A stretch of 29,139 nucleotides of DNA, taken from positions 1-29,139 of the forward strand of contig JADHWW010000118.1 of assembly GCA_016783285.1 (NCBI GenBank). The letters are read 5' to 3'. This document shows positions 1 through 29,139 of this stretch, in pieces. Under the pieces are notes generated by a model. That model was not told where the DNA came from. It saw only the letters and a list, made by a program, of their open reading frames with translations, and ran no database searches. The stretch is from Anaerolineae bacterium (GTDB lineage Bacteria; Chloroflexota; Anaerolineae; B4-G1). The position numbers and the translations under genes are program-made. How positions within the stretch are numbered: the stretch's first letter is position 1; every line of letters begins with the position of its first letter.

Positions 1-3000
1 CAGAATTCAGTCGCTACCGTGGCTACCTTACGCGTAGCCTCCAGAGCTTGATCTGTCTCATCGGACGATCTCAATAGGTATGCCATCTCAAGCCAACCGA
101 GGGTTTCATTAGCGCTTTGAGCGGGTATTCTACCGAGAGCCTTCAATCCGTCTTCTCGTGCCGGCAATTTCAGCAGCCGCTTGCTTACTCTTCGCAGCAG
201 TCGTGCTGACGCTCCGGGGTGCATCGCTGCCTCCTGCAACACACAAATGGCATCGTCCGTCTGTCCCTTCTCAGCCAGCAAATAGGCTTTCGCTGCTTGT
301 CTATAGGGATGCGCCTGGCTCTGCTCTGGCAGGGCATCCAGCCATTCCTCAGATACTCTGCGGAATCTGCCCCAAGCTTCCTGAGCACGCTCCTCCCACT
401 TTGCACGCGTGGTCTTTGGTCCGTGATTCGGTACAGCCTGGATTTCGCACGATTCTTCTGGCGGCACGATCCTTGCCCCTAGCAACCTAGTCAAGGCATT
501 GTATTTGTCGCTCACCTCGTTAACAACACGTCCCGCCAGCAAAGTCAAATCAACCTGATCCCGCTTCCGCCTTGTTGCATACAGGGTGTCATTTAGTGCC
601 AAGATTGCATTCACTCGGTCTAGTACTCCCCACCGTTCGGCAATGTCCAGAAGCGTCTGGTATGCCTCATCAATTATTTCATCTATCTTATCTTCCTTAC
701 CGGCCTTCCCAATCGCAACGGCAGCTTCATAGCGGTACGTATGTCGAACTGACATCGCTATTGCCCTGAGGGCTGCCAACCCAATCTTGTGGGCTGGGCC
801 GGCCATATTCAGTAGCGTCTCTGCAAGATGGTAGGTTTGTCTATCATTCAACTCCTGCGAAAGTAGTAGCTCGACTGATACTGTTGCTGCTTCTATTTCT
901 TCCTCTTCTCCCTGTTCAGCCAGTAACATGGCAGCGACCTGCTCATTGGCTGCGTCTAATGTCTTCGCCAGTATTGTCCAAGCACCACGTATCACGCTTT
1001 CCCGTTCCTCTAACTGCCTCAGCGCGATTATCGCCCGCAGACTATCCTCACCTTGTGTTGCCAACTCGGCAAGCACGTGTACTCCGGCTTCACGCTCGTC
1101 GTGGTATTCTATCAGCCATTCCGCTGCCAACCGTCGCACTCTCTCGACATGACCCTGGGTCGCCAACCTGCGAATCTCACTGGCTGACTCGTCGAGTCGG
1201 TACCGGACCCACTGTGCCATCTCCTGTTGTTCTGGGAGAACAAGAACTTCCGTCAGCCGGTCAATGAACGTCCCTAGCTCTGCTTTCGTCAGATGCCTCC
1301 CTACGTGGACTGATCCAAAGCTCTCATCTGTCGCAGCAACCGTTGTCTCGGTTGGGTCTGCGTTGACTTCGAGTGCAAGCCCCCGCCCCTCGTACTTTCT
1401 GGCCACATCAATGAGCCAGGCAATCGTTTTTTCTTTCCATTTCTCAAGGAGCAACTCGATGATTCGGGCCATTGTACTGGAATGTCCTCGCCTGCTGGCA
1501 GCCTCACGCAATGTCAGGAGCAACTCGCGGCTCCGCTCTCGCTCTCCAAGCCTCAACAACGTCTCTGCTATGGCAACCTCTATGGCCCACGGCCTTTCAT
1601 TCTCCAACAAGGCGCGGACGTGCTCAATTCCTGCTTGCTGATACTGCGTTCCCTGCAGTCCTGCAAAGATACGAACGGCTTCAGCCCGCAGACCCGATTG
1701 CCGGCTTAGTAATAGACTGACTAGGTTTCTAAGGATTACGCCTCGCATCTCACCGCCCACTAAAACGCCTTCTCCCAAGCATTTTCCAGCCAGTATGCGA
1801 TCCCGCCACACAATGCCTTCCCATGGACTTCCAAGGCCGAGAATAACCTGCAAAACCTTAGTTGCTACTACCTTGCTATCATATCCTACCTGTGCCACGA
1901 ACAACTCAATCACTTCGATCCACTGAGGTTTGTGGACATGATTTAGCACGAATTCCCTGTCATCAGCGTGCCAACGCTCTGCCAGATAGCCCGCCGCCAA
2001 GTATTCTGCAAATCGTCGGTGCATGAACTCAAATACGCGCTTTCCCTGCCTGTCCGTCCCCTGACTGGCCAACAGGCCACTCTCTTCGCTGATTAGTTTC
2101 AGCCAGCGTCTGCTTCCCTCCCGTGCTCGCACTTCGTCCCACCCGATTACCTCGATAATCCCTGTGGTGAGCATGTCCACCAGTTCATCTTCACCGATCA
2201 ACCCGTTCCCATTTAGCATATGGTACGCGATAGGCTTTAGAATTTGTCTGACCGTATCTTGATACAGATTTTCTAGGCCAACCTTTGATTGAGGATCATC
2301 CCCATACTTGCTCTCTCGCCAGTACTTGATTAGCGTATCTGTAGTAGCCCGGTATACCTCGATTGAACTGCCAGGCAATGTCGTCGTACGCCAATGCATA
2401 TGTATGATGATGGTCAGCATCAGAGGATTCTTTACCAGCTCCATCAGTTTCGGACGTTCATACAATGCATCTTTCAGATCTTGCGCACCTGGTTGTTCAT
2501 CGCAACTTCGTCCCTCATACCACCGGTCAATAAACTGGCAGATATACTCAAACTCTTCCATCCGCCTTATCGTCAGAGGTCTAAACCCGCCCAACCTTGT
2601 TTGGCGATATGCATCTATACGACTCGTGATTACAATGTGATTCTTTCCATAGCCAGCGGTGAAATCTTGAACCGCTTCCGCGACCTCTCTAAGACAACTT
2701 GCTTCGTCCAGACCATCCAGTATCACGACACATCGTCCTGCCCCGAGTTCTTGCTCAAGCAGTGGACCAAAGTCAGACCTGTCAAATGGATCCTCACACA
2801 GGTGCCTTTTTAAACTTAAGCCTGGTTCGCCCTCCATTAGCCGACGGGAGTATTTTGCAAGACGCCCTATGATTGGTAGATAGCCAGCAAACCGTGCGTC
2901 CGCTTTTGTACCAGGCTCACCTGCCAGTGCTAGTGCCAAATACCGTACTGTTGTGGTCTTCCCGGCGCCCGCTTCACCCAGGATAGCAATTTGGTCCGAA

Positions 3001-4472
3001 GGGCCTGATGCCAGACCGTCCCACATATCCACAATGCGACCAGGCGCTTCTCGCATAGCCTTTTCTGGCCGGGTCGGCACATACTCGATTTGCCCTTCCC
3101 CCTCGCTGTACATCTCGTCAGCCGGTTCGGGCATCTCAGGCTGATCTTCCAAAGTGTCTGCAGGCTGAGCATCTCTTACTGGCTTGCGTGCCTCAAACGT
3201 TTGCTGCGACTCCAGTCCCTCTATTAGACTTAGTGGCACGTAGACCTCTGACAAAGCTGGATCCGCCGCTCCCTCCGCTGCCTGGGGAGCCAGTCCGCGC
3301 AGTTCCAACAGCCGGTACCGCTTACGCACTGCCTCCATATAATCCTTTCGCAGTTTTTTCCGACCCACTTGCTCTTGCTCTTGTGATGAGTCTGGTTGTT
3401 CATGTCCTGAAGGAGGCTTGTCTGTTTCGAGGACCATTGACGCAGGCTCTTTCTTTTTGCCCAGATCTTTGGGCAGGTCAAAGGTGTACAAGCCCGGCGA
3501 CTCGTCCCCCGTTGTGGCGGTGTCCTTGATCCAACCTTGACGATCCTCGTAGCGTCTCAGGTATACCCTGCCTTTGCCGGTCACAAAATCAAGATGGACA
3601 TAATTGTAAGCATTGGCACAGCGCGAAATCTCTGGTTCGCGACGGTCATAGCTGGGACCAGCAGGGATGATGACACAGTCGCCTCCTGGGCCTAATTCGA
3701 TATTTACACGTGGCTGGTGCTCATGCCCTTGTAAAACAAAATGACACGCTTCCCTTAGCCGATCACACACCAAATCCCGATCAAATTTGATCAGCCAGTC
3801 AAATGGATGGTGCATTACGGCGATGCGCACATCAGCCTTGCAAAAATCCTCGTTATGCAAGAGATCGTAGATCTGCGGTTCGCCAAGGATCAAGTAACGG
3901 TCATCGTTGATCACTTCCCTGCCATCTCTGACCTCATTATGCCGTCCAGATAACAATGCAGAGTTGAGCCCAATCAAAGCAATGCACTTGCCGCCTGCTT
4001 TGAACTGTCGCAGATAAGCATAGGCTGTCTGGGATTGATCCACATGTTCAGCAATGAAGTTGTCGTACTCTTTGAAAGGACGCAGAAGATTGGTGATACC
4101 TTCCGGATCAGTGAACCATTCCTGTACCTCTGAATTAGAAGTCAAAGGTTGCTTAAGAGCCCCAAACAGGTACTTGAAAGCGTCTCTATCCAGGTCGTGG
4201 TTGCCAGGAACGATAAACAGCCGGTTATGGCTCAACCCGGCTGCTTCAAGCACAGGAGCAAACAAGTGTTCAATCGCAGTGCTGTATTCCTTTGCCTTTC
4301 CAGCATAAGCCACATCGCCGCTAAAGACGATAAAATCAACCTGCGCCAAGTCAGGACTGATGCACGCTCGTTCACGGATGTCCTGAATCAGAGCGTCGCG
4401 CACAACCCGTCTGTCAAAATCTTCCCCTCGCTGGTGCCAATCAGAAAAATGGAGCCAAGTAAGCCCTGCCAT
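1..4472 (-). CDS. Metallophosphoesterase-NACHT ATPase-helical repeat protein (bacterial NLR-like), C-terminus beyond window
   Basis: The frame is open without a stop from the ATG at 4472 to the window edge, giving at least 1490 residues. Residues 1-300 form a calcineurin-like phosphoesterase with the metal-ligand motifs D11-x-H13, GD53, GN91-H92-D, H221-H222 and GH250-E-H252. Residues 335-480 are a charged linker, including the RGL...YVPL stretch that typically precedes NACHT domains. The NACHT domain follows: Walker A GEAGAGKTT (499-507, K505), Walker B VILDGLDE (583-590), a TSR motif (616-618), the NPLMLT motif (682-687) and FMHRRFAEYLAA (816-827). From about 840 to the edge the protein is alpha-helical, with HEAT/TPR-like repeats. 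Known STAND NTPases use such repeats to sense a ligand and then oligomerise to activate the N-terminal effector; here the effector would be the phosphoesterase, cutting a nucleic acid or nucleotide (inference). GGGGAT lies just upstream of the ATG. The gene looks more AT-rich than its neighbours, which suggests transfer. Domain calls are firm; the defence role is inferred. Confidence 0.92.
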   Translation of the reverse strand, partial: MAGLTWLHFSDWHQRGEDFDRRVVRDALIQDIRERACISPDLAQVDFIVFSGDVAYAGKAKEYSTAIEHLFAPVLEAAGLSHNRLFIVPGNHDLDRDAFKYLFGALKQPLTSNSEVQEWFTDPEGITNLLRPFKEYDNFIAEHVDQSQTAYAYLRQFKAGGKCIALIGLNSALLSGRHNEVRDGREVINDDRYLILGEPQIYDLLHNEDFCKADVRIAVMHHPFDWLIKFDRDLVCDRLREACHFVLQGHEHQPRVNIELGPGGDCVIIPAGPSYDRREPEISRCANAYNYVHLDFVTGKGRVYLRRYEDRQGWIKDTATTGDESPGLYTFDLPKDLGKKKEPASMVLETDKPPSGHEQPDSSQEQEQVGRKKLRKDYMEAVRKRYRLLELRGLAPQAAEGAADPALSEVYVPLSLIEGLESQQTFEARKPVRDAQPADTLEDQPEMPEPADEMYSEGEGQIEYVPTRPEKAMREAPGRIVDMWDGLASGPSDQIAILGEAGAGKTTTVRYLALALAGEPGTKADARFAGYLPIIGRLAKYSRRLMEGEPGLSLKRHLCEDPFDRSDFGPLLEQELGAGRCVVILDGLDEASCLREVAEAVQDFTAGYGKNHIVITSRIDAYRQTRLGGFRPLTIRRMEEFEYICQFIDRWYEGRSCDEQPGAQDLKDALYERPKLMELVKNPLMLTIIIHMHWRTTTLPGSSIEVYRATTDTLIKYWRESKYGDDPQSKVGLENLYQDTVRQILKPIAYHMLNGNGLIGEDELVDMLTTGIIEVIGWDEVRAREGSRRWLKLISEESGLLASQGTDRQGKRVFEFMHRRFAEYLAAGYLAERWHADDREFVLNHVHKPQWIEVIELFVAQVGYDSKVVATKVLQVILGLGSPWEGIVWRDRILAGKCLGEGVLVGGEMRGVILRNLVSLLLSRQSGLRAEAVRIFAGLQGTQYQQAGIEHVRALLENERPWAIEVAIAETLLRLGERERSRELLLTLREAASRRGHSSTMARIIELLLEKWKEKTIAWLIDVARKYEGRGLALEVNADPTETTVAATDESFGSVHVGRHLTKAELGTFIDRLTEVLVLPEQQEMAQWVRYRLDESASEIRRLATQGHVERVRRLAAEWLIEYHDEREAGVHVLAELATQGEDSLRAIIALRQLEERESVIRGAWTILAKTLDAANEQVAAMLLAEQGEEEEIEAATVSVELLLSQELNDRQTYHLAETLLNMAGPAHKIGLAALRAIAMSVRHTYRYEAAVAIGKAGKEDKIDEIIDEAYQTLLDIAERWGVLDRVNAILALNDTLYATRRKRDQVDLTLLAGRVVNEVSDKYNALTRLLGARIVPPEESCEIQAVPNHGPKTTRAKWEERAQEAWGRFRRVSEEWLDALPEQSQAHPYRQAAKAYLLAEKGQTDDAICVLQEAAMHPGASARLLRRVSKRLLKLPAREDGLKALGRIPAQSANETLGWLEMAYLLRSSDETDQALEATRKVATVATEF

Positions 4473-4509: not shown

Positions 4510-4541
4510 CGAACCTACGAATCTACGAATTTACGACATCC
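4510..4541. repeat. Octanucleotide tandem repeat, about 4 units
   Basis: Four consecutive 8-base units read CGAACCTA, CGAATCTA, CGAATTTA and CGACATCC. The array spans the end of the isomerase gene (its TAG stop is at 4523-4525) and part of the 50-base gap before the NACHT gene. The fourth unit is diverged. No function is evident; it is a short simple repeat of the kind found between genes. Confidence 0.6.
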
Positions 4542-5299
4542 TTCAAAAAGCGCCTCTCAATCCCCATAATCTTATCCACCCGCCGCGCGTGCCGCCCGCC
4601 GCCGAAGGGGGTCTTAAGCCACGTCTTGACGATCTGCCGGGCCAGGTTGGGGCCAATCAGCCCGGCGCCCAACGTCAACACGTTGGCATCGTTATGCTCG
4701 CGGCTATTGGCGGCTGTGGCCTGGTCGTAGCAAAGGCTAGCGCGCACACCTGGCACCTTGTTGGCCGCCATGCACGAGCCGATGCCCGCGCCGTCCACAA
4801 CGATGCCACGCCAGGCGCGGCTCCGGGCCACCAACTGCGCCACCGCAAAGGCGAAGTCCGGGTAGTCCACCGAGTTGGTGCTGTCGGTTCCGCAGTCCAT
4901 GACACTGTAACCCAACTCGCCCAGGTAGCCCTTCAGCATCTCCTTTAACTCGTACCCGCCGTGGTCGGCTCCGATGGCAACGGTCGGTTCGGCCGGGCCC
5001 ATCGAAGTCCGCTGGCCCGCGGTGGTGGGGTCGGTACACGGTACGTCAGTCAACGACAGTGCGGGCACTGCTGCTCCTGCCCCCACCATGGTCACGTGCC
5101 GCTCCAGGGCCACCTGCCAGGCCAGGGGAGTGATGAGCGCCCCCTGGGGAACGGAGATCTGTTCCCCAACCGAAACAGCCTGGACATCCGCCTCTGTCAC
5201 CAGGGGCCGGGTAGCCACCGGCCGGGAGACTTGTGGCAACCCCAACGTGCGGTAGACCACACGGCGCACCATTTGGCGGATCTGATTCTCGTCCAGCAC
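4523..5299 (-). CDS. RpiB/LacA-family sugar-phosphate isomerase with N-terminal extension
   Basis: Residues 106-258 match the RpiB/LacAB fold of ribose-5-phosphate (or galactose-6-phosphate) isomerases: IGADHGGYELKE (109-120), DYPDFA (145-150), SREHNDANVL (199-208) and GGGRHARRV (233-241). The usual catalytic Cys in the CGTGIG loop is replaced by D169 (VVDGAGIGSCMAANK), a pattern closer to LacA. The first 105 residues are extra. They start with an amphipathic helix (MLDENQIRQMVRRVV) resembling the encapsulation peptides of bacterial microcompartment enzymes. Next comes a segment (LVTEADV...GALITPLAWQVA) resembling the N-terminus of EutQ-type proteins. The start is a GTG at 5299 with GGGGAGAG upstream. 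No shell-protein gene is visible here. The isomerase fold is firm; the substrate and any microcompartment link are uncertain. Confidence 0.88.
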   Translation of the reverse strand: MLDENQIRQMVRRVVYRTLGLPQVSRPVATRPLVTEADVQAVSVGEQISVPQGALITPLAWQVALERHVTMVGAGAAVPALSLTDVPCTDPTTAGQRTSMGPAEPTVAIGADHGGYELKEMLKGYLGELGYSVMDCGTDSTNSVDYPDFAFAVAQLVARSRAWRGIVVDGAGIGSCMAANKVPGVRASLCYDQATAANSREHNDANVLTLGAGLIGPNLARQIVKTWLKTPFGGGRHARRVDKIMGIERRFLKDVVNS

Positions 5300-12809: not shown

Positions 12810-14798
12810 TTAGTCCTCGTATCCTGGGATCGGCCCGAAGGCGGCCTCAATCTCCTCTGGCTCGAAAACCTCCAACATACAATCCCACCAAATCAAACCA
12901 TCGGTCTTCTGAAAATCCCACCACCGGATGTCTGGCCAAAAGTATCGCCATCGCCATAGGGCAGGCATCCGCTCCCAGCCGTAGTCGCTGGCGATGGTAG
13001 TGAAGTCCACGTAGTAGCCGGACGGGATGCTCGACTTGGGCGCTCCACCTTCCACCCGGGCGCGCCCGCCCTGCTGGCGGGTGTTCAGGTCCCACACCGC
13101 TTCGCGCAAAGGCTCTCCCATACTACCGTCCTGCTCGGCGGCGCGAATAAAGACGCGCCAGTACGTGACGTTGCCCACGTCCTCCCGTATCAGTTCAACC
13201 TGTGGTTCATCCTCCTCGTAGGGCTCTTGGTCCAGACCGATCGCCCTGCCACAGACGTGCCAACTCATACGCGAGTGGCCCGAGGGTGGGGTATAAGTCA
13301 CCGGCCGCCAGGAATCTCCCAGGTCAGCCAGGTAGTCCCACCCCACCTCCTCAACCACGCGCTGGCGCAGCGCGTTGAGACTCTCGTTCACCCGGTCGGA
13401 GAGAAGCTCCCCATCGCCGTCGTTGACGTTGGGAAGCAGGACCAATCGGTAGGGCGGGCCGCTGGCTGGCGTCGGCTGCGCCAGTTCCACGTAGAACGGC
13501 GGCTCATCGGCTGGCTCGGCAGCCTGGGCCCGGGCCACGACGCGGGGAGAAAGTGCAAGGTCCGTCCACGCCAGATCGTCCAACAAGCCATCGGTGCTGT
13601 AAACCTGGTGGAACAGCGCCCATCCGGTCATACTGGCCGCGATGAGGTGGCTGTTTCCGCCCCGCTCGTAGGTATAGATGAGACTTTGCCCGTCGGGTGA
13701 CCAGGCTGGGGAATCACCAACGCCGAAGAGTTCAGTTTCGGCCTGGTTGGCCGTCATCGCGTCCCAATCGAAGGTGGTGACCTGGATAGAAGGGTTACCG
13801 CGCGGCCCGCTGACGTACGCCAGTTGTGTGCCGTCGGGTGACCAAGCCGGGGCATCCTCGTCCAGATCGGGGCTATGGGTGATGTTGATGATCTCTCCCT
13901 CGCCATCGAGGAGGTAGAGGTAAATGTCCTTGTTGCCGTCACGGAAGGAACTGAAAGCGATAGCGCGGCTGTCAGGCGACCAGGCCGGCCCGTAGTCGGG
14001 TGCGCGGTCGGTGGTGACGCGCCGCACCTGCTCTTCGGTGGTGCTCATCACGTAGATGTCGAGGTTTCCTCGGCGGTAGGATTCAAAAGCAATCCAGCGG
14101 CCATCGGGGGACCAACTGGGGTTAGCGTCGAAGCCGGGATCGTGGGTCAGGCGGATCGGCGGCGCGCTGCCGGCCAGGTCCAGCAGATAGATGTCCCAGT
14201 TGTGGGCGCGGTTCGAGGCGAAGGCAATGTAGTTGCCGTCAGGCGACCATGCCGGGTTGCGATCCTCGGCCGGGTCGTAGGTCAGCCGCACCAGTTGCCG
14301 CTCGGCCTGATTGAGGGCGTAGATGTCGGCATTGCCGTTGCGTCGCAGGGCGAAAGCGATGGCCCCGCCGCTGCCCAAGGGAGTGGGTGTGGGGCCAGAT
14401 GTGGGGGAGAGACCAGGTGTCGTGGTGGCGACGACGAGTTGGGGAGGCCCCTCCATGACCGTCACCGTAGCCGCCTGGTACAGCGCGATGGTCAGCAACA
14501 CCAGGACGAGCAGGTTGCCCAGGATCAGCAGGACGAGCAGCCGCACGCCGCGCGGCCGCAACTTGAGGGGCTGCCCGACCTCGTCCGGCCTGCGCAGCCA
14601 GGCGAGCGCGAAGGTGATGCGGCTCCAGAACCGCCGGAGCGCGCTCCTCTGCTCATCTGGTGTCTCTGTCTGTGGTTCGTGAGACTCTTCTTGCTGCACT
14701 TCGTCTCGCTCTGCTTTGTCGGCCATGCCCTTCTCACTTGCGCTCAGACTGGTTTCTTCCCAGTGCTGCACTTCGTCTCGCTCTGCTTTGTCGGCCAT
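12810..14798 (-). CDS. Membrane-anchored TolB-like beta-propeller protein with C-terminal domain
   Basis: The protein has up to 662 residues. The acidic N-terminal tail is followed by one transmembrane helix (about 88-112, VRLLVLLILGNLLVLVLLTIA) and a Pro/Thr-rich linker. At least six PD40/TolB propeller repeats follow, each with a PAWSPDG-like turn and a DIYLL-like strand (about 145-410). The C-terminal region (about 430-662) contains SRMSWHVCGRAIGLD (H514, D523) and later YGWERMP and WWDFQ. These faintly recall M15 D-Ala-D-Ala peptidases, but the full zinc set is not there. The propeller should lie outside the membrane. The first 24 codons are duplicated, so translation could begin at 14798 (almost leaderless from its promoter) or at 14726, which has AGAAGG just upstream. 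Confidence 0.88.
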   Translation of the reverse strand: MADKAERDEVQHWEETSLSASEKGMADKAERDEVQQEESHEPQTETPDEQRSALRRFWSRITFALAWLRRPDEVGQPLKLRPRGVRLLVLLILGNLLVLVLLTIALYQAATVTVMEGPPQLVVATTTPGLSPTSGPTPTPLGSGGAIAFALRRNGNADIYALNQAERQLVRLTYDPAEDRNPAWSPDGNYIAFASNRAHNWDIYLLDLAGSAPPIRLTHDPGFDANPSWSPDGRWIAFESYRRGNLDIYVMSTTEEQVRRVTTDRAPDYGPAWSPDSRAIAFSSFRDGNKDIYLYLLDGEGEIINITHSPDLDEDAPAWSPDGTQLAYVSGPRGNPSIQVTTFDWDAMTANQAETELFGVGDSPAWSPDGQSLIYTYERGGNSHLIAASMTGWALFHQVYSTDGLLDDLAWTDLALSPRVVARAQAAEPADEPPFYVELAQPTPASGPPYRLVLLPNVNDGDGELLSDRVNESLNALRQRVVEEVGWDYLADLGDSWRPVTYTPPSGHSRMSWHVCGRAIGLDQEPYEEDEPQVELIREDVGNVTYWRVFIRAAEQDGSMGEPLREAVWDLNTRQQGGRARVEGGAPKSSIPSGYYVDFTTIASDYGWERMPALWRWRYFWPDIRWWDFQKTDGLIWWDCMLEVFEPEEIEAAFGPIPGYED

Positions 14799-14801
14799 GC
14801 C
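14692..14801. repeat. 72-base duplication at the start of the propeller gene
   Basis: A 38-base segment at 14764-14801 is repeated exactly at 14692-14729, offset by 72 bases (24 codons). Each copy carries the start codon and the peptide MADKAERDEVQ. The second copy keeps the frame, so the protein either begins with two copies of the peptide or starts at the second. Confidence 0.9.
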
Positions 14802-15832: not shown

Positions 15833-18537
15833 CCCCTGTTCGCAAACAGTATCTCCAGATCAAGGCCCGGCACCCGGACGCCATCGTATTCTTCCGGCTG
15901 GGCGACTTCTACGAGACCTTCGACGAGGACGCGGAGACCGCCTCCCGCGAACTTGATCTCGTCCTGACCTCGCGCCCGGTGGCCAAGGGGACGCGCGTGC
16001 CGATGGCCGGCGTCCCCTACCATGCCATTGAGGGATACATTGCCCGCCTCATCGAGAAGGGCTACCGCGTCGCCATCGCCGAGCAGGTGGGTGAGGTCAC
16101 CGGCAGGGGGCTGGTCGCCCGGGAGGTGACGCGCGTCGTGACCCCCGGCACCGTCGTCGAACCTGCGCTCCTGGACGAGAAGCGGCCCAATTACCTGGCT
16201 GCGATCGTGGTCGAGTGCGACCATTCTGCTCCACCCAGGGCAGGCCGGGCCGGCCTGGCTTACGCCGACATCACGACCGGCGAATTTGCCACCACCCAGT
16301 TGGACGCGGGCGAAGTGGCGCAGGAGTTGGCGCGGCTGCAGCCACGAGAGTGCTTAATCCCCGAAGGGACAAGTTGGGGGCAAGAAGCAGGAGGCAGGAG
16401 GCAAAAGAGCAAGCATCCAGCATCCAGCATCCAGCATCTAGCATCTAGTATCCACCTCACTCCGCTCCCCGCTTACCGTTTCGAGTTGGGGGCCGCTCGC
16501 CAGGTGCTGCTCGATCACTTCGGCGTGGCGACGCTGGATGGCTTCGGCTGCGCGGGTAAGCCGCTGGCCGTCCAGGCCGCCGGGGCCATCGTCCACTACC
16601 TGCACGAGACCCAGAAAGGGGCATTGGCGCAGATTGTAGAACTCAGCACCTACGCGACCTCCCGTTTTATGGTGCTCGACGCGGTCACGCGCCGCAATCT
16701 GGAGTTGACCGAGACGATCCGCGAGCGCAAGAAGCGCGGCTCACTCCTGGGCGTGCTGGACCTGACGCTCACCCCAATGGGCGGGCGGTTGCTACGGGCA
16801 CGGTTGGCCCAACCGCTGCTCAATCAGGCGGAACTGGAGGCGCGGCTGGACAAGGTGCAGGTGTTCTACGAGGACACTATCGCACGCGGGCGGGTGCGCG
16901 AAGTCCTCGCCGGGCTGCCCGACCTGGAGCGGCTGGTCAATCGGGTACTAACGGGCATCGCCACGCCCCGCGACCTGGTGGGCATCCGCAAAGCGTTGGA
17001 AGTGGTGAGAAGGATAGGGAGCAGGATGCAGGATGTAAGAAATAAAAAAGCCTCGAGAGATGCTTCTGCAACCCTGCCCCCTGATTCCTGCCTCGTGCAT
17101 CTTGCATCTTCTCTTGACCCCTGTAGCGACGTCGTTTCTCTCATCGGTTCCGCCATCGTAGACGACCCACCCGCGAGCGCCTCCGGTGGCAGGGTCATCC
17201 GGCCTGGCTTCTCCGCCGAACTGGACAGCATCGCCACGGCAGCGCGGGACGCCAAAGCCTGGGTCGCCAGCCTGGAAAAGCGGGAACGCGAGCGCACCGG
17301 CATCAAGAGCCTCAAGGTGGGCTACAACAAGGTCTTCGGATACTACATTGAGGTCACCAAGGCCAACCTGAGCGCGGTGCCCGACGAATACATCCGCAAG
17401 CAGACGTTGGTCAACGCCGAGCGGTTCATCACGCCGGAGTTGAAGGAGTACGAAACGCTGATCCTGAACGCCGAGGAGCGGCAGGCCGAGGTCGAGACGC
17501 GGCTGTTCAAGGACGTCTGCCAGCAAGTGGAAGCGCGTGCTGAGGCTTTGCTCAAGACAGCACGGGCGCTGGCGCGACTGGACGTGGTGACGGCGCTAGC
17601 CGAGGTCGCCGTGCGCAACCGGTATGTCCGCCCCGAACTGGCCGACGAGGACATACTGGAGATCGTCGCTGGCCGCCATCCTGTCGTCGAGCAGACGCTG
17701 CGGGATGAGCCTTTTACGCCCAACGACCTGCACCTCGACGCCGACGAGCGCATCCTGATCATCACCGGGCCGAATATGGCCGGAAAAAGTGTGAATCTTC
17801 GTCAGGCGGCCCTTATCGTGCTGATGGCACAGATGGGTAGTTTCGTGCCCGTCGACCGGGCGCGGGTGGGCCTCGCGGACCGCATCTTCACCCGCATCGG
17901 TGCGCAGGATGAGGTGGCCTCCGGCCAGTCTACCTTTATGGTCGAGATGATCGAAGCGGCCAACATCCTCAATCACGCCACGGTGCGCAGCCTGCTCATC
18001 CTCGATGAGATCGGGCGTGGCACCAGCACCTACGACGGTCTCTCCATCGCCTGGGCGGTGGTCGAATACCTGCACAACCACCCGGAGCGGAGAGCGCGGA
18101 CTCTCTTCGCCACCCACTACCACGAGTTGACCGAGATGGCGGAGCGGCTCCCGGCGGTGCGCAACTACAACCTGGCGGTGGTGGAGGAAGGGAACCAGGT
18201 TATCTTCTTGCACAAAGTAGTGCGCGGCGGGGCAGACCGCTCCTACGGCATCCACGTGGCGCAGTTGGCAGGCGTGCCACGCCCGGTCATCCATCGGGCC
18301 GAGGAACTGCTGGCGCAACTGGAGAGCGGAGAGTTCCGCCCCGGCACTCCTGCGCTTAAGCCCCACCAGCCGGTGCTGTTCGCCGACGAGCACCCGGTGG
18401 TGAAGGAATTGCGAGAGTTGGACGTCTCGACGATGACACCACTGGAGGCGATCAACAAGTTATATGAGCTACAGCGCCAGGCGAGGGGGGGGAGCCTACC
18501 AGTGATTACCCACATCTCATCGGATTCCCATATTTAG
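15820..18537 (+). CDS. mutS: DNA mismatch repair protein MutS
   Basis: The 905-residue protein recognises mismatched bases and starts repair. Domain I has the mismatch-stacking motif F30-Y-E32 (FRLGDFYETF). The core and clamp follow (LTPMGGRLLRARLAQPL; GYNKVFGYYIEVTKAN). The ATPase domain has Walker A GPNMAGKS (650-657), STFMVEMIEAANIL, Walker B LLILDEIGRGTSTYDG and LFATHYHELTEMA. The C-terminal tail ends MTPLEAINKLYELQRQA. Two segments, about 190-212 and 398-433, are not normal MutS sequence and derive from heptanucleotide repeats (see 16387 and 17011). Both keep the frame and lie between domains, so the protein is probably functional. mutL is not nearby. The ATG at 15820 lacks a clear ribosome-binding site. 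Confidence 0.97.
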   Translation: MPKVTPVRKQYLQIKARHPDAIVFFRLGDFYETFDEDAETASRELDLVLTSRPVAKGTRVPMAGVPYHAIEGYIARLIEKGYRVAIAEQVGEVTGRGLVAREVTRVVTPGTVVEPALLDEKRPNYLAAIVVECDHSAPPRAGRAGLAYADITTGEFATTQLDAGEVAQELARLQPRECLIPEGTSWGQEAGGRRQKSKHPASSIQHLASSIHLTPLPAYRFELGAARQVLLDHFGVATLDGFGCAGKPLAVQAAGAIVHYLHETQKGALAQIVELSTYATSRFMVLDAVTRRNLELTETIRERKKRGSLLGVLDLTLTPMGGRLLRARLAQPLLNQAELEARLDKVQVFYEDTIARGRVREVLAGLPDLERLVNRVLTGIATPRDLVGIRKALEVVRRIGSRMQDVRNKKASRDASATLPPDSCLVHLASSLDPCSDVVSLIGSAIVDDPPASASGGRVIRPGFSAELDSIATAARDAKAWVASLEKRERERTGIKSLKVGYNKVFGYYIEVTKANLSAVPDEYIRKQTLVNAERFITPELKEYETLILNAEERQAEVETRLFKDVCQQVEARAEALLKTARALARLDVVTALAEVAVRNRYVRPELADEDILEIVAGRHPVVEQTLRDEPFTPNDLHLDADERILIITGPNMAGKSVNLRQAALIVLMAQMGSFVPVDRARVGLADRIFTRIGAQDEVASGQSTFMVEMIEAANILNHATVRSLLILDEIGRGTSTYDGLSIAWAVVEYLHNHPERRARTLFATHYHELTEMAERLPAVRNYNLAVVEEGNQVIFLHKVVRGGADRSYGIHVAQLAGVPRPVIHRAEELLAQLESGEFRPGTPALKPHQPVLFADEHPVVKELRELDVSTMTPLEAINKLYELQRQARGGSLPVITHISSDSHI
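16387..16454. repeat. Heptanucleotide repeat element inside mutS (first)
   Basis: It begins with two GCAGGAG units (16387-16400) and a GCAAAAG unit. After five bases come six 7-base units (16413-16454): GCATCCA three times, GCATCTA twice and GTATCCA. It is translated as a 7-residue repeat (HPASSIQ, HLASSIH). Typical MutS proteins go straight from the CLIPEG region to LTPLPAYRF, so this is an insertion. Confidence 0.85.
17011..17117. repeat. Heptanucleotide repeat element inside mutS (second)
   Basis: Two GCAGGAT units (17021-17034) at the left are followed by an A-rich stretch and a pyrimidine-rich stretch. Two GCATCTT units (17097-17110) lie at the right. The ends are imperfect inverted repeats, so the RNA could fold. 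The plan, GCAGGAx pair then GCATCxx pair, matches the element at 16387. It encodes about 36 residues (RIGSRMQDV to SCLVHLASSL) that interrupt normal MutS sequence before LDPCSDVVSLI. Confidence 0.75.
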
Positions 18538-28401: not shown

Positions 28402-29139
28402 TTAGTCCGAAGATGCCAGGCTGAGGAGACTGGCACCGCAGACAATACAGTGACCCTTGACCGCGCGACGGCCGTCGGGCATGACGAGTTCACGCGCTTC
28501 TTTGATGGGGCGATGGACGTGGCAGGTCAGACAGTAAGCAGTGTGTTCCTGCCGTTGTTGCCCAATTTGGTCTTGGCTTATCTTATAGTCGGCCTGCAAG
28601 CGGGCGATTTCTGCCTCTCGTTCGGCCAATTGGTCGTCCAGTTGAGCGATCTGATGTCGTACGTCTTCCAGGTCCGCAGTGAGCCGAGCGGCGGCGGCCT
28701 GGGCCTTCTCACATTCGGCCTGGAAGGTATCTCGTTCGGTGACGGTCTGCTCTAGGCGGTGGTGGGCGTCGTCGAGGTCAGTGGTCAGGCGCTTGATGTC
28801 GGTCCGGGCATCCACTCGCTCGGCGTCGAGCTGTTCGCTCATTTGCTCCATGCGCTGGCGGGCGGCCTCGAGCTCGGCAGAGACGTCGTCTCGCTCGACC
28901 CGAACGGCGCTGAGCGCGGCCGTGTGATCGCTGCTTAGACGCTCGATCTCTGCACGGGCGGCCTCGAGCTCGGCGGAGACGTCGTCTCGCTCGACCCGAA
29001 CGGCGCTGAGCGCGGCCGTGTGATCGCTGCTCAGACGCTCGATCTCTGCACGGGCGGCCTCGAGCTCGGCAGAGACGTCGTCTCGCTCGACCCGAACGGC
29101 GCTGAGCGCGGCCGTGTGATCGCTGCTTAGACGCTCGAT
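28402..29139 (-). CDS. Coiled-coil protein with C-terminal zinc ribbon (DUF5679-type), N-terminus beyond window
   Basis: The frame stays open from the TAA at 28402-28404 to the right edge, at least 245 residues. Most is a long charged coiled coil. The part at 28861-29139 consists of near-identical 32-residue repeats with core EIERLSSDHTAALSAVRVER. The last 45 residues are a zinc ribbon: YCLTCHVHRPI, then MPDGRRAVKGHCIVCGASL, with two CxxC pairs as in DUF5679. Internal ATGs such as 28851 are not convincing starts, because the coiled coil continues upstream. It precedes the propeller gene by 61 bases on the same strand and is probably the first gene seen of the GTPase-Roadblock operon. Confidence 0.85.
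   Translation of the reverse strand: MERLSSDHTAALSAVRVERDDVSAELEAARAEIERLSSDHTAALSAVRVERDDVSAELEAARAEIERLSSDHTAALSAVRVERDDVSAELEAARQRMEQMSEQLDAERVDARTDIKRLTTDLDDAHHRLEQTVTERDTFQAECEKAQAAAARLTADLEDVRHQIAQLDDQLAEREAEIARLQADYKISQDQIGQQRQEHTAYCLTCHVHRPIKEARELVMPDGRRAVKGHCIVCGASLLSLASSD
28861..29139. repeat. 96-base in-frame tandem repeat, at least 2.9 copies
   Basis: Units begin at 28861, 28957 and 29053 with GGCGGCCTCGAGCTCGGC. They differ at only a few bases (for example A/G at 28880 versus 28976). Each encodes 32 residues of coiled coil. The array continues past the window edge, so the copy number is unknown. Confidence 0.95.

Follow-up and report, generated by a model that had tools for sequence, protein, structure and literature searches.

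A contig-end gene for a phosphoesterase-NACHT-solenoid protein

Contig JADHWW010000118.1 of the Anaerolineae bacterium assembly GCA_016783285.1, taken here over 29,139 nucleotides (the window), carries at its left end a gene whose product joins a calcineurin-like metallophosphoesterase, a NACHT-type nucleoside triphosphatase (NTPase) and an alpha-helical solenoid. The gene lies on the minus strand at 3..4472, and its frame runs from an ATG at 4472 down to base 3 through 1490 codons with zero stops. A GGGG stretch stands seven bases upstream of the start codon. An earlier interpretation made from the letters alone (the sequence-only reading) had described one uninterrupted frame reaching the edge, and the contig does end inside a stop-free gene; the frame was as described, although its orientation needed correcting, frame 1 of the plus strand being full of stops across the same region. 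Because the window is apparently the whole contig, the 3' end is cut off and the C-terminus of the protein lies beyond reach. Two relatives have longer proteins, P0002 (2084 aa) and P0003 (2073 aa), and they share 50% identity with window residues 1-1490 and 1-1486, respectively. P0121 is a shorter relative of 1326 aa, and its alignment to window residue 1490 stops at its own residue 1261. The gene is probably functional.

The phosphoesterase, the presumed effector, occupies residues 1-330 (3483..4472, minus strand, as are all parts of the gene given below). Its Pfam Metallophos match covers residues 7-254 at 4.9e-11, which exceeds the cut-off, and the complete calcineurin-like motif set (D-x-H, GD, GNH, H, GHxH) is present. 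The metal ligands D11 and H13 lie in D11-W12-H13 (4434..4442) and are followed by the ligand D53 (4314..4316), N91-H92-D93 of the GNHD motif (4194..4202), the ligand H221 (3810..3812) and H250-E-H252 (3717..3725). These catalytic metal-site residues are invariant in all aligned homologues having letters at those positions: D11-W12-H13 and D53 in 118 of 118 sequences, and N91-H92-D93, H221 and both histidines of H250-E-H252 in 119 of 119. The phosphoesterase residues named in the sequence-only reading were correct; they lie in S10-D11-W12-H13, G52-D53, G90-N91-H92-D93 and G249-H250-E-H252, to which H221 is to be added. The domain has the calcineurin-like metallophosphoesterase fold; the AlphaFold2 (AF2) model of residues 1-345, built with 36 aligned sequences, reaches a predicted local distance difference test (pLDDT) score of 89.2 and a predicted template modelling (pTM) score of 0.90. 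The front end looks like an intact metal-dependent phosphoesterase. In addition, W12, N170, R177, D190, Q200, H222, W226, N290, R306 and W314, none of them a metal ligand, are each retained in at least 116 of 118-119 sequences and form a short list for substrate work.

A linker of residues 331-480 (3033..3482), partly of low pLDDT, leads to the NTPase and contains a conserved segment that is 57% identical over 42 aa to that of P0005. The NACHT NTPase and its winged-helix part span residues 481-860 (1893..3032). The Pfam NACHT profile matches residues 494-632 at 2.5e-5; with 24.6 bits it falls slightly short of the cut-off of 26.7, which it passes in the relatives P0002 (31.3 bits) and P0005 (43 bits). 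The motifs and the modelled fold nevertheless agree with a NACHT: the Walker A, the Walker B DGLDE, the T-S-R and the winged-helix segment vary little or not at all across 21 aligned proteins. Walker A lies at G499..K505, with the lysine K505 of the sequence-only reading at 2958..2960, and Walker B at D586..D589-E590. The AF2 model of residues 331-1490, built with 18 sequences (pLDDT 82.4, pTM 0.63), shows an alpha/beta NTPase core and, after it, many paired helices in a row. It has the fold of NOD-like receptors (NLRs), and its NACHT part resembles that of animal NLRs.

The paired helices form the presumed sensor, an alpha-helical solenoid of residues 861-1490 (3..1892) whose C-terminal rest is missing. 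Most of this block is modelled at a pLDDT of 80-95, and the region is homologous in P0002, P0003, P0005 and P0121, with 46-48% identity in the first three; a homologue search with residues 861-1490 returned at least one other protein. The sensor had been described as TPR/HEAT-like. The solenoid itself is borne out by the model, but Pfam finds no TPR or HEAT repeat in the 1490 residues present (E<=0.01). P0002 has its best TPR and HEAT stretches at 1539-1973; as its residue 1485 pairs with residue 1490 of the window protein, such stretches would fall just past the contig edge.

Exchange of modules and probable foreign origin

At least 293 proteins, the window protein included, match residues 1-900 at E<=1e-3, and the best other protein among the matches listed is 52% identical along the entire region, which excludes a chance architecture. 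The phosphoesterase is found in 118 of the 119 listed homologues; 64 of these 118 also have a NACHT detectably similar to that of the window protein and 54 do not. The phosphoesterase has a median identity of 49.5% in the former and 47.5% in the latter, the NACHT one of 26.5%. The partners of the phosphoesterase vary and include NACHT, NB-ARC/TPR, WD40, FGE and AAA. P0004, for example, has the closest phosphoesterase among the listed homologues (65%), but its NACHT is only 24% identical and its C-terminus is of the FGE type. On a quick phosphoesterase tree with 38 of 116 inner branches well supported and 50 weak, and with labels assigned partly by exclusion, the NTPase class changes 10 times against a minimum of 6 and a shuffled mean of 43, and the FGE label changes 7 times. 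The NTPase class thus appears clustered yet exchanged several times, as the 10 changes suggest.

The reverse exchange is seen from the side of the body. P0005 is 46-57% identical to the window protein in the linker, NACHT and C-terminal part and has no N-terminal Pfam domain among the matches listed. P0121 carries NNH5 at 6-138 in front of a NACHT and a C-terminal part that are 47% and 34% identical, respectively. Within one lineage, the NACHT-solenoid body thus swaps the phosphoesterase for other N-terminal modules. The phosphoesterase is a portable module: it keeps about 50% identity next to changing partners, and the body occurs with other N-termini. In this it behaves like an interchangeable effector. 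Exchange of the N-terminal part is typical of effectors in signal transduction ATPases with numerous domains (STAND).

Several fusions were met among the homologues. P0113 has the phosphoesterase fused to NB-ARC and TIR. P0038, a protein of 1598 aa, combines a nucleoside phosphorylase, the phosphoesterase, NACHT and HEAT repeats. In Nostoc paludosum (L002:10001-16128), a phosphoesterase-SIR2 protein of 718 aa has an nSTAND1-WD40 protein of 1312 aa encoded directly behind it, and the two are perhaps a two-gene system.

The distribution is patchy and the composition foreign. The host itself is very likely a member of the Chloroflexota: the window's MutS shares 76% identity with that of one genome in the phylum of an Anaerolineae seed, and matches occur in 167 of 201 genomes sampled from this phylum. 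The GC content at third codon positions (GC3) is 0.523 in this gene and 0.671-0.819 in 19 other measured open reading frames of the window. Only one of 400 Chloroflexota genomes matches the phosphoesterase at E<=1e-20, and that match is merely 28% identical. At E<=1e-30, with group names taken from the titles of the seed loci, matches occur in 9 of 146 genomes of the class of Methanothrix without the seeds (12 of 149 with them), in 0 of 243 Cyanobacteria, the phylum of the Nostoc genome, without the seed (1 of 244 with it), and in 0 of 193 Verrucomicrobia without the seed (1 of 194 with it). Identities of the phosphoesterase in the archaea of the Methanothrix class are mostly 45-56%, with one of 38%. 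The GC3 contrast, the scarce Chloroflexota matches and the closer archaeal ones fit a horizontally moving gene, and the gene was probably acquired horizontally. An empty-site test found rpiB in four of the five Chloroflexota genomes searched; the other 19 window genes tested had no match at E<=1e-5 in the three fetched regions, and the insertion site is therefore not comparable.

A contig scan adds loci of which, among the matches listed, 8 of 80 match any residues of the phosphoesterase. Four loci on viral contigs are similar to the NACHT part only, and phage records gave zero phosphoesterase matches. The NACHT part (1893-3032) also matches the phage family phrog_18297 at 4.8e-12, and because of this match phages appear to carry NACHT-like NTPases of the same kind.

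Comparison with DS-8 and proposed function

The sequence-only reading knew of no characterised phosphoesterase-NACHT protein, a statement that is now out of date. According to the accessible part of the DefensePredictor report (PMC13092281, Science 2026), DS-8 combines a metallophosphatase and a NACHT in one protein and defends E. coli against phage; this protection disappears when either domain is mutated. The open-access literature, outside which most subscription papers lie, yielded no other tested example. Like DS-8 (NCBIfam NF053861), the window protein is a single protein with a metallophosphatase and a NACHT-type NTPase, and its N-terminal metallophosphatase aligns with DS-8 profile positions 1-273 at E 1.8e-27. 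In contrast to DS-8, whose profile is 994 long, the relatives of the window protein reach about 2080 residues, and the 1490 residues present score 95.5 bits (P0002, 95.1 bits) against a cut-off of 790. An orthologue of DS-8 is ruled out by this score and the lack of body similarity. By analogy, the window protein most likely works like DS-8, as a separate lineage of the same kind. The phosphoesterase of DS-9A (NF053862) is also related (42 bits, window residues 7-222), but DS-9 is, in the accessible part of its description, a two-gene system with a HAD phosphatase. Two loci, L138:9362-11917 and L139:8463-11102, have DS-8-like bodies in which a TIR domain replaces the metallophosphatase; they match the profile from about position 300 on with 555-567 bits, under the cut-off of 790, and come from 2 of 394 genomes in the order to which an Alteromonadaceae seed belongs, taken to be Enterobacterales.

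Calcineurin-type domains were proposed as effectors before. In the accessible sections of two papers from Aravind's group, calcineurin is listed as one of the effectors at the N-terminus of STAND-FGS proteins (Kaur et al. 2021, PMC8195603) and described as the effector met most often in GAP1-N1 GTPase systems (Kaur et al. 2020, PMC7159879), both as sequence predictions. A 2024 paper on hypermutated sensors mentions, in its accessible text, one target protein in which NACHT is accompanied by a cAMP-phosphodiesterase domain (PMC10907252). Calcineurin-type STAND effectors have thus been predicted since 2020-21, and a metallophosphatase-NACHT protein was tested in 2026. The role proposed for the domain in the STAND-FGS and GAP1-N1/GASH systems, as far as those accessible sections go, is the same as that proposed here, whereas the C-terminal part of the window protein is a helical solenoid. 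A plasmid search gave 17 records with a related phosphoesterase, of which four were examined. In three conjugative plasmids (L103-L105), a phosphoesterase of 25-33% identity stands ahead of GASH-type gene sets, and in one non-mobilizable plasmid it stands ahead of or within an FGE-type (SUMF1) gene. In Aliivibrio salmonicida pVSAL840 (L104:7989-16735), the phosphoesterase, an IS30 transposase, GASH and GTPase genes lie beside RADAR rdrB. Unlike animal NLRs (NLRC4, NLRP3, NOD2) and bacterial Avs3, whose effector is a nuclease, the window protein has an N-terminal phosphoesterase; moreover, Pfam finds no leucine-rich repeat in it. YydB of Bacillus subtilis (9a6c_B, a chain of 481 residues) is 19% identical, and the title of that entry names an integrative model by crosslinking and deep learning.

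It is fairly probable that the window protein acts in immunity inside the cell as an NLR-like (NACHT/STAND) protein, with a phosphoesterase as effector, a sensing solenoid and ATP-driven oligomerisation. The C-terminal solenoid would bind a product of a phage or other invader, the NACHT would open with ATP and oligomerise, and the N-terminal di-metal phosphoesterases would be brought together and end the infection by hydrolysing a phosphodiester or a nucleotide. The damage would probably fall on the nucleotide economy of the host or on the nucleic acid of the invader. The protein has a conserved active site, a modelled NLR-type NTPase fold and solenoid, swapping of the N-terminal module and a foreign composition; from DS-8 and from what is known of NLRs, we infer the anti-phage role, the oligomerisation and the phosphoesterase as executioner. 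It seems to be a further member of a class of anti-phage proteins that was validated recently, rather than a new kind of system.

Several results weigh against such an immune role. The frame is cut at the contig edge, so that no intact gene is demonstrated. Similarity to the DS-8 profile is limited to the phosphoesterase, with nothing past position 273, and BLASTP of one DS-8-type body against the window protein gave no significant match. None of the scanned neighbours (rpiB, a response regulator, sufS, an NTPase, a TolB-like propeller and a PLPC-like gene) is a defence system. Flanks were also surveyed at ten loci in nine genomes (phosphoesterase matches of 34-52%, open reading frames of at least 90 aa); not all loci bear a NACHT, L002 being phosphoesterase-SIR2 and L131 a 459-aa frame. 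PADLOC (E<=1e-8) was run on 102 of the 116 non-phosphoesterase flank frames, short or edge ones being omitted, and on 102 random control frames out of 172 from nine 20-kb stretches in five of the nine genomes. It counted 49 families among the neighbours and 69 among these partly matched controls, and thus no enrichment, the counts being crude because of redundant models (39 GajB-like ones from one UvrD-like frame). Leading control hits among the matches listed include a cysteine-desulfurase-type DndA/SspA match. As PADLOC families are no commoner near relatives than in controls, the claim of a defence island was dropped. The architecture and the NLR-like defence reading with a phosphoesterase effector are supported by the family evidence; the survey of defence neighbours proposed in the sequence-only reading showed no enrichment. 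The rdrB gene on L104 and DarT/DarG among the neighbour hits are anecdotes.

Among other explanations, the phosphoesterase may be a signal eraser under the control of the NACHT-solenoid part, cleaving a nucleotide alarm or a cyclic nucleotide so that, for instance, another system stays silent; this is conceivable but unlikely. A STAND signalling or self-recognition protein of the cell's own physiology (cell death, development or stress), unrelated to phage, would agree with the lack of defence-gene enrichment near relatives, with the ordinary neighbourhood in the window and with the origin of the first-found phosphoesterase loci (L001-L004) in Methanothrix and Nostoc, which are filamentous. 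However, the patchy distribution and foreign base composition are unlike core physiology, DS-8 offers a precedent for defence, and a related phosphoesterase heads the GASH gene sets of the three conjugative plasmids, which makes this explanation improbable. That the gene is a decaying or mis-assembled remnant, broken beyond the edge and only seemingly intact, is highly improbable: the contig does stop inside the gene with no stop codon visible and GC jumps close to the gene boundary, but 1490 codons are free of stops, P0002 and P0003 remain 50% identical along residues 1 to 1490 and 1486, respectively, and the catalytic motifs are retained.

A wider proposal, which we regard as a long shot, extends the immune reading to one universal plug-in effector that destroys nucleotides under NACHT, NB-ARC, WD40, AAA, GTPase-centric and DS-8/DS-9 triggers in archaea and bacteria, acting on what NAD+ and nucleoside effectors produce or consume. 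If true, it would hydrolyse ADP-ribose, NAD or a related nucleotide, and a depletion of nucleotides or NAD+ would thereby become irreversible. The module does stand beside NAD- or nucleoside-directed enzymes in three fusions, with SIR2 (L002), TIR (P0113) and nucleoside phosphorylase (P0038); against more than 100 proteins without such a partner, these are a hint and no pattern. As the module is very constant across unrelated triggers in a family of at least 293 proteins, one biochemical answer would bear on many systems.

Neighbouring genes and minor observations

The upstream neighbour at 4523..5299, also on the minus strand, encodes an RpiB-type sugar-phosphate isomerase; its stop codon lies 50 bases from the ATG of the phosphoesterase-NACHT gene, and it is not thought to be part of the system. 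At its N-terminus it is longer by about 105 residues, for which Pfam gives no hit, and its residues 4-255 have a 60% identical match in one Chloroflexota genome. Pfam recognised no GASH among the six neighbours on the upstream side, the downstream side being off the contig. The window genes that we take from their translations to be polA, mutS and a sigma factor gene do not suggest defence either.

Repeats occur elsewhere in the window. The TolB-like propeller gene begins with a perfect direct repeat of 38 bases (14692-14801), which doubles the peptide MADKAERDEVQ. In the mutS frame, the 7-base repeat AGCATCC occurs in 6 copies at 16412-16454, in a stretch reading KHPASSIQHLASSIH, and the mutS match of the nearest relative (76%) contains two TAA codons. 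A 96-base unit repeated 2.9 times with 97% identity at 28859-29139, inside the open frame 28402-29139 (minus strand), reaches the right end of the contig and may have stopped the assembly.
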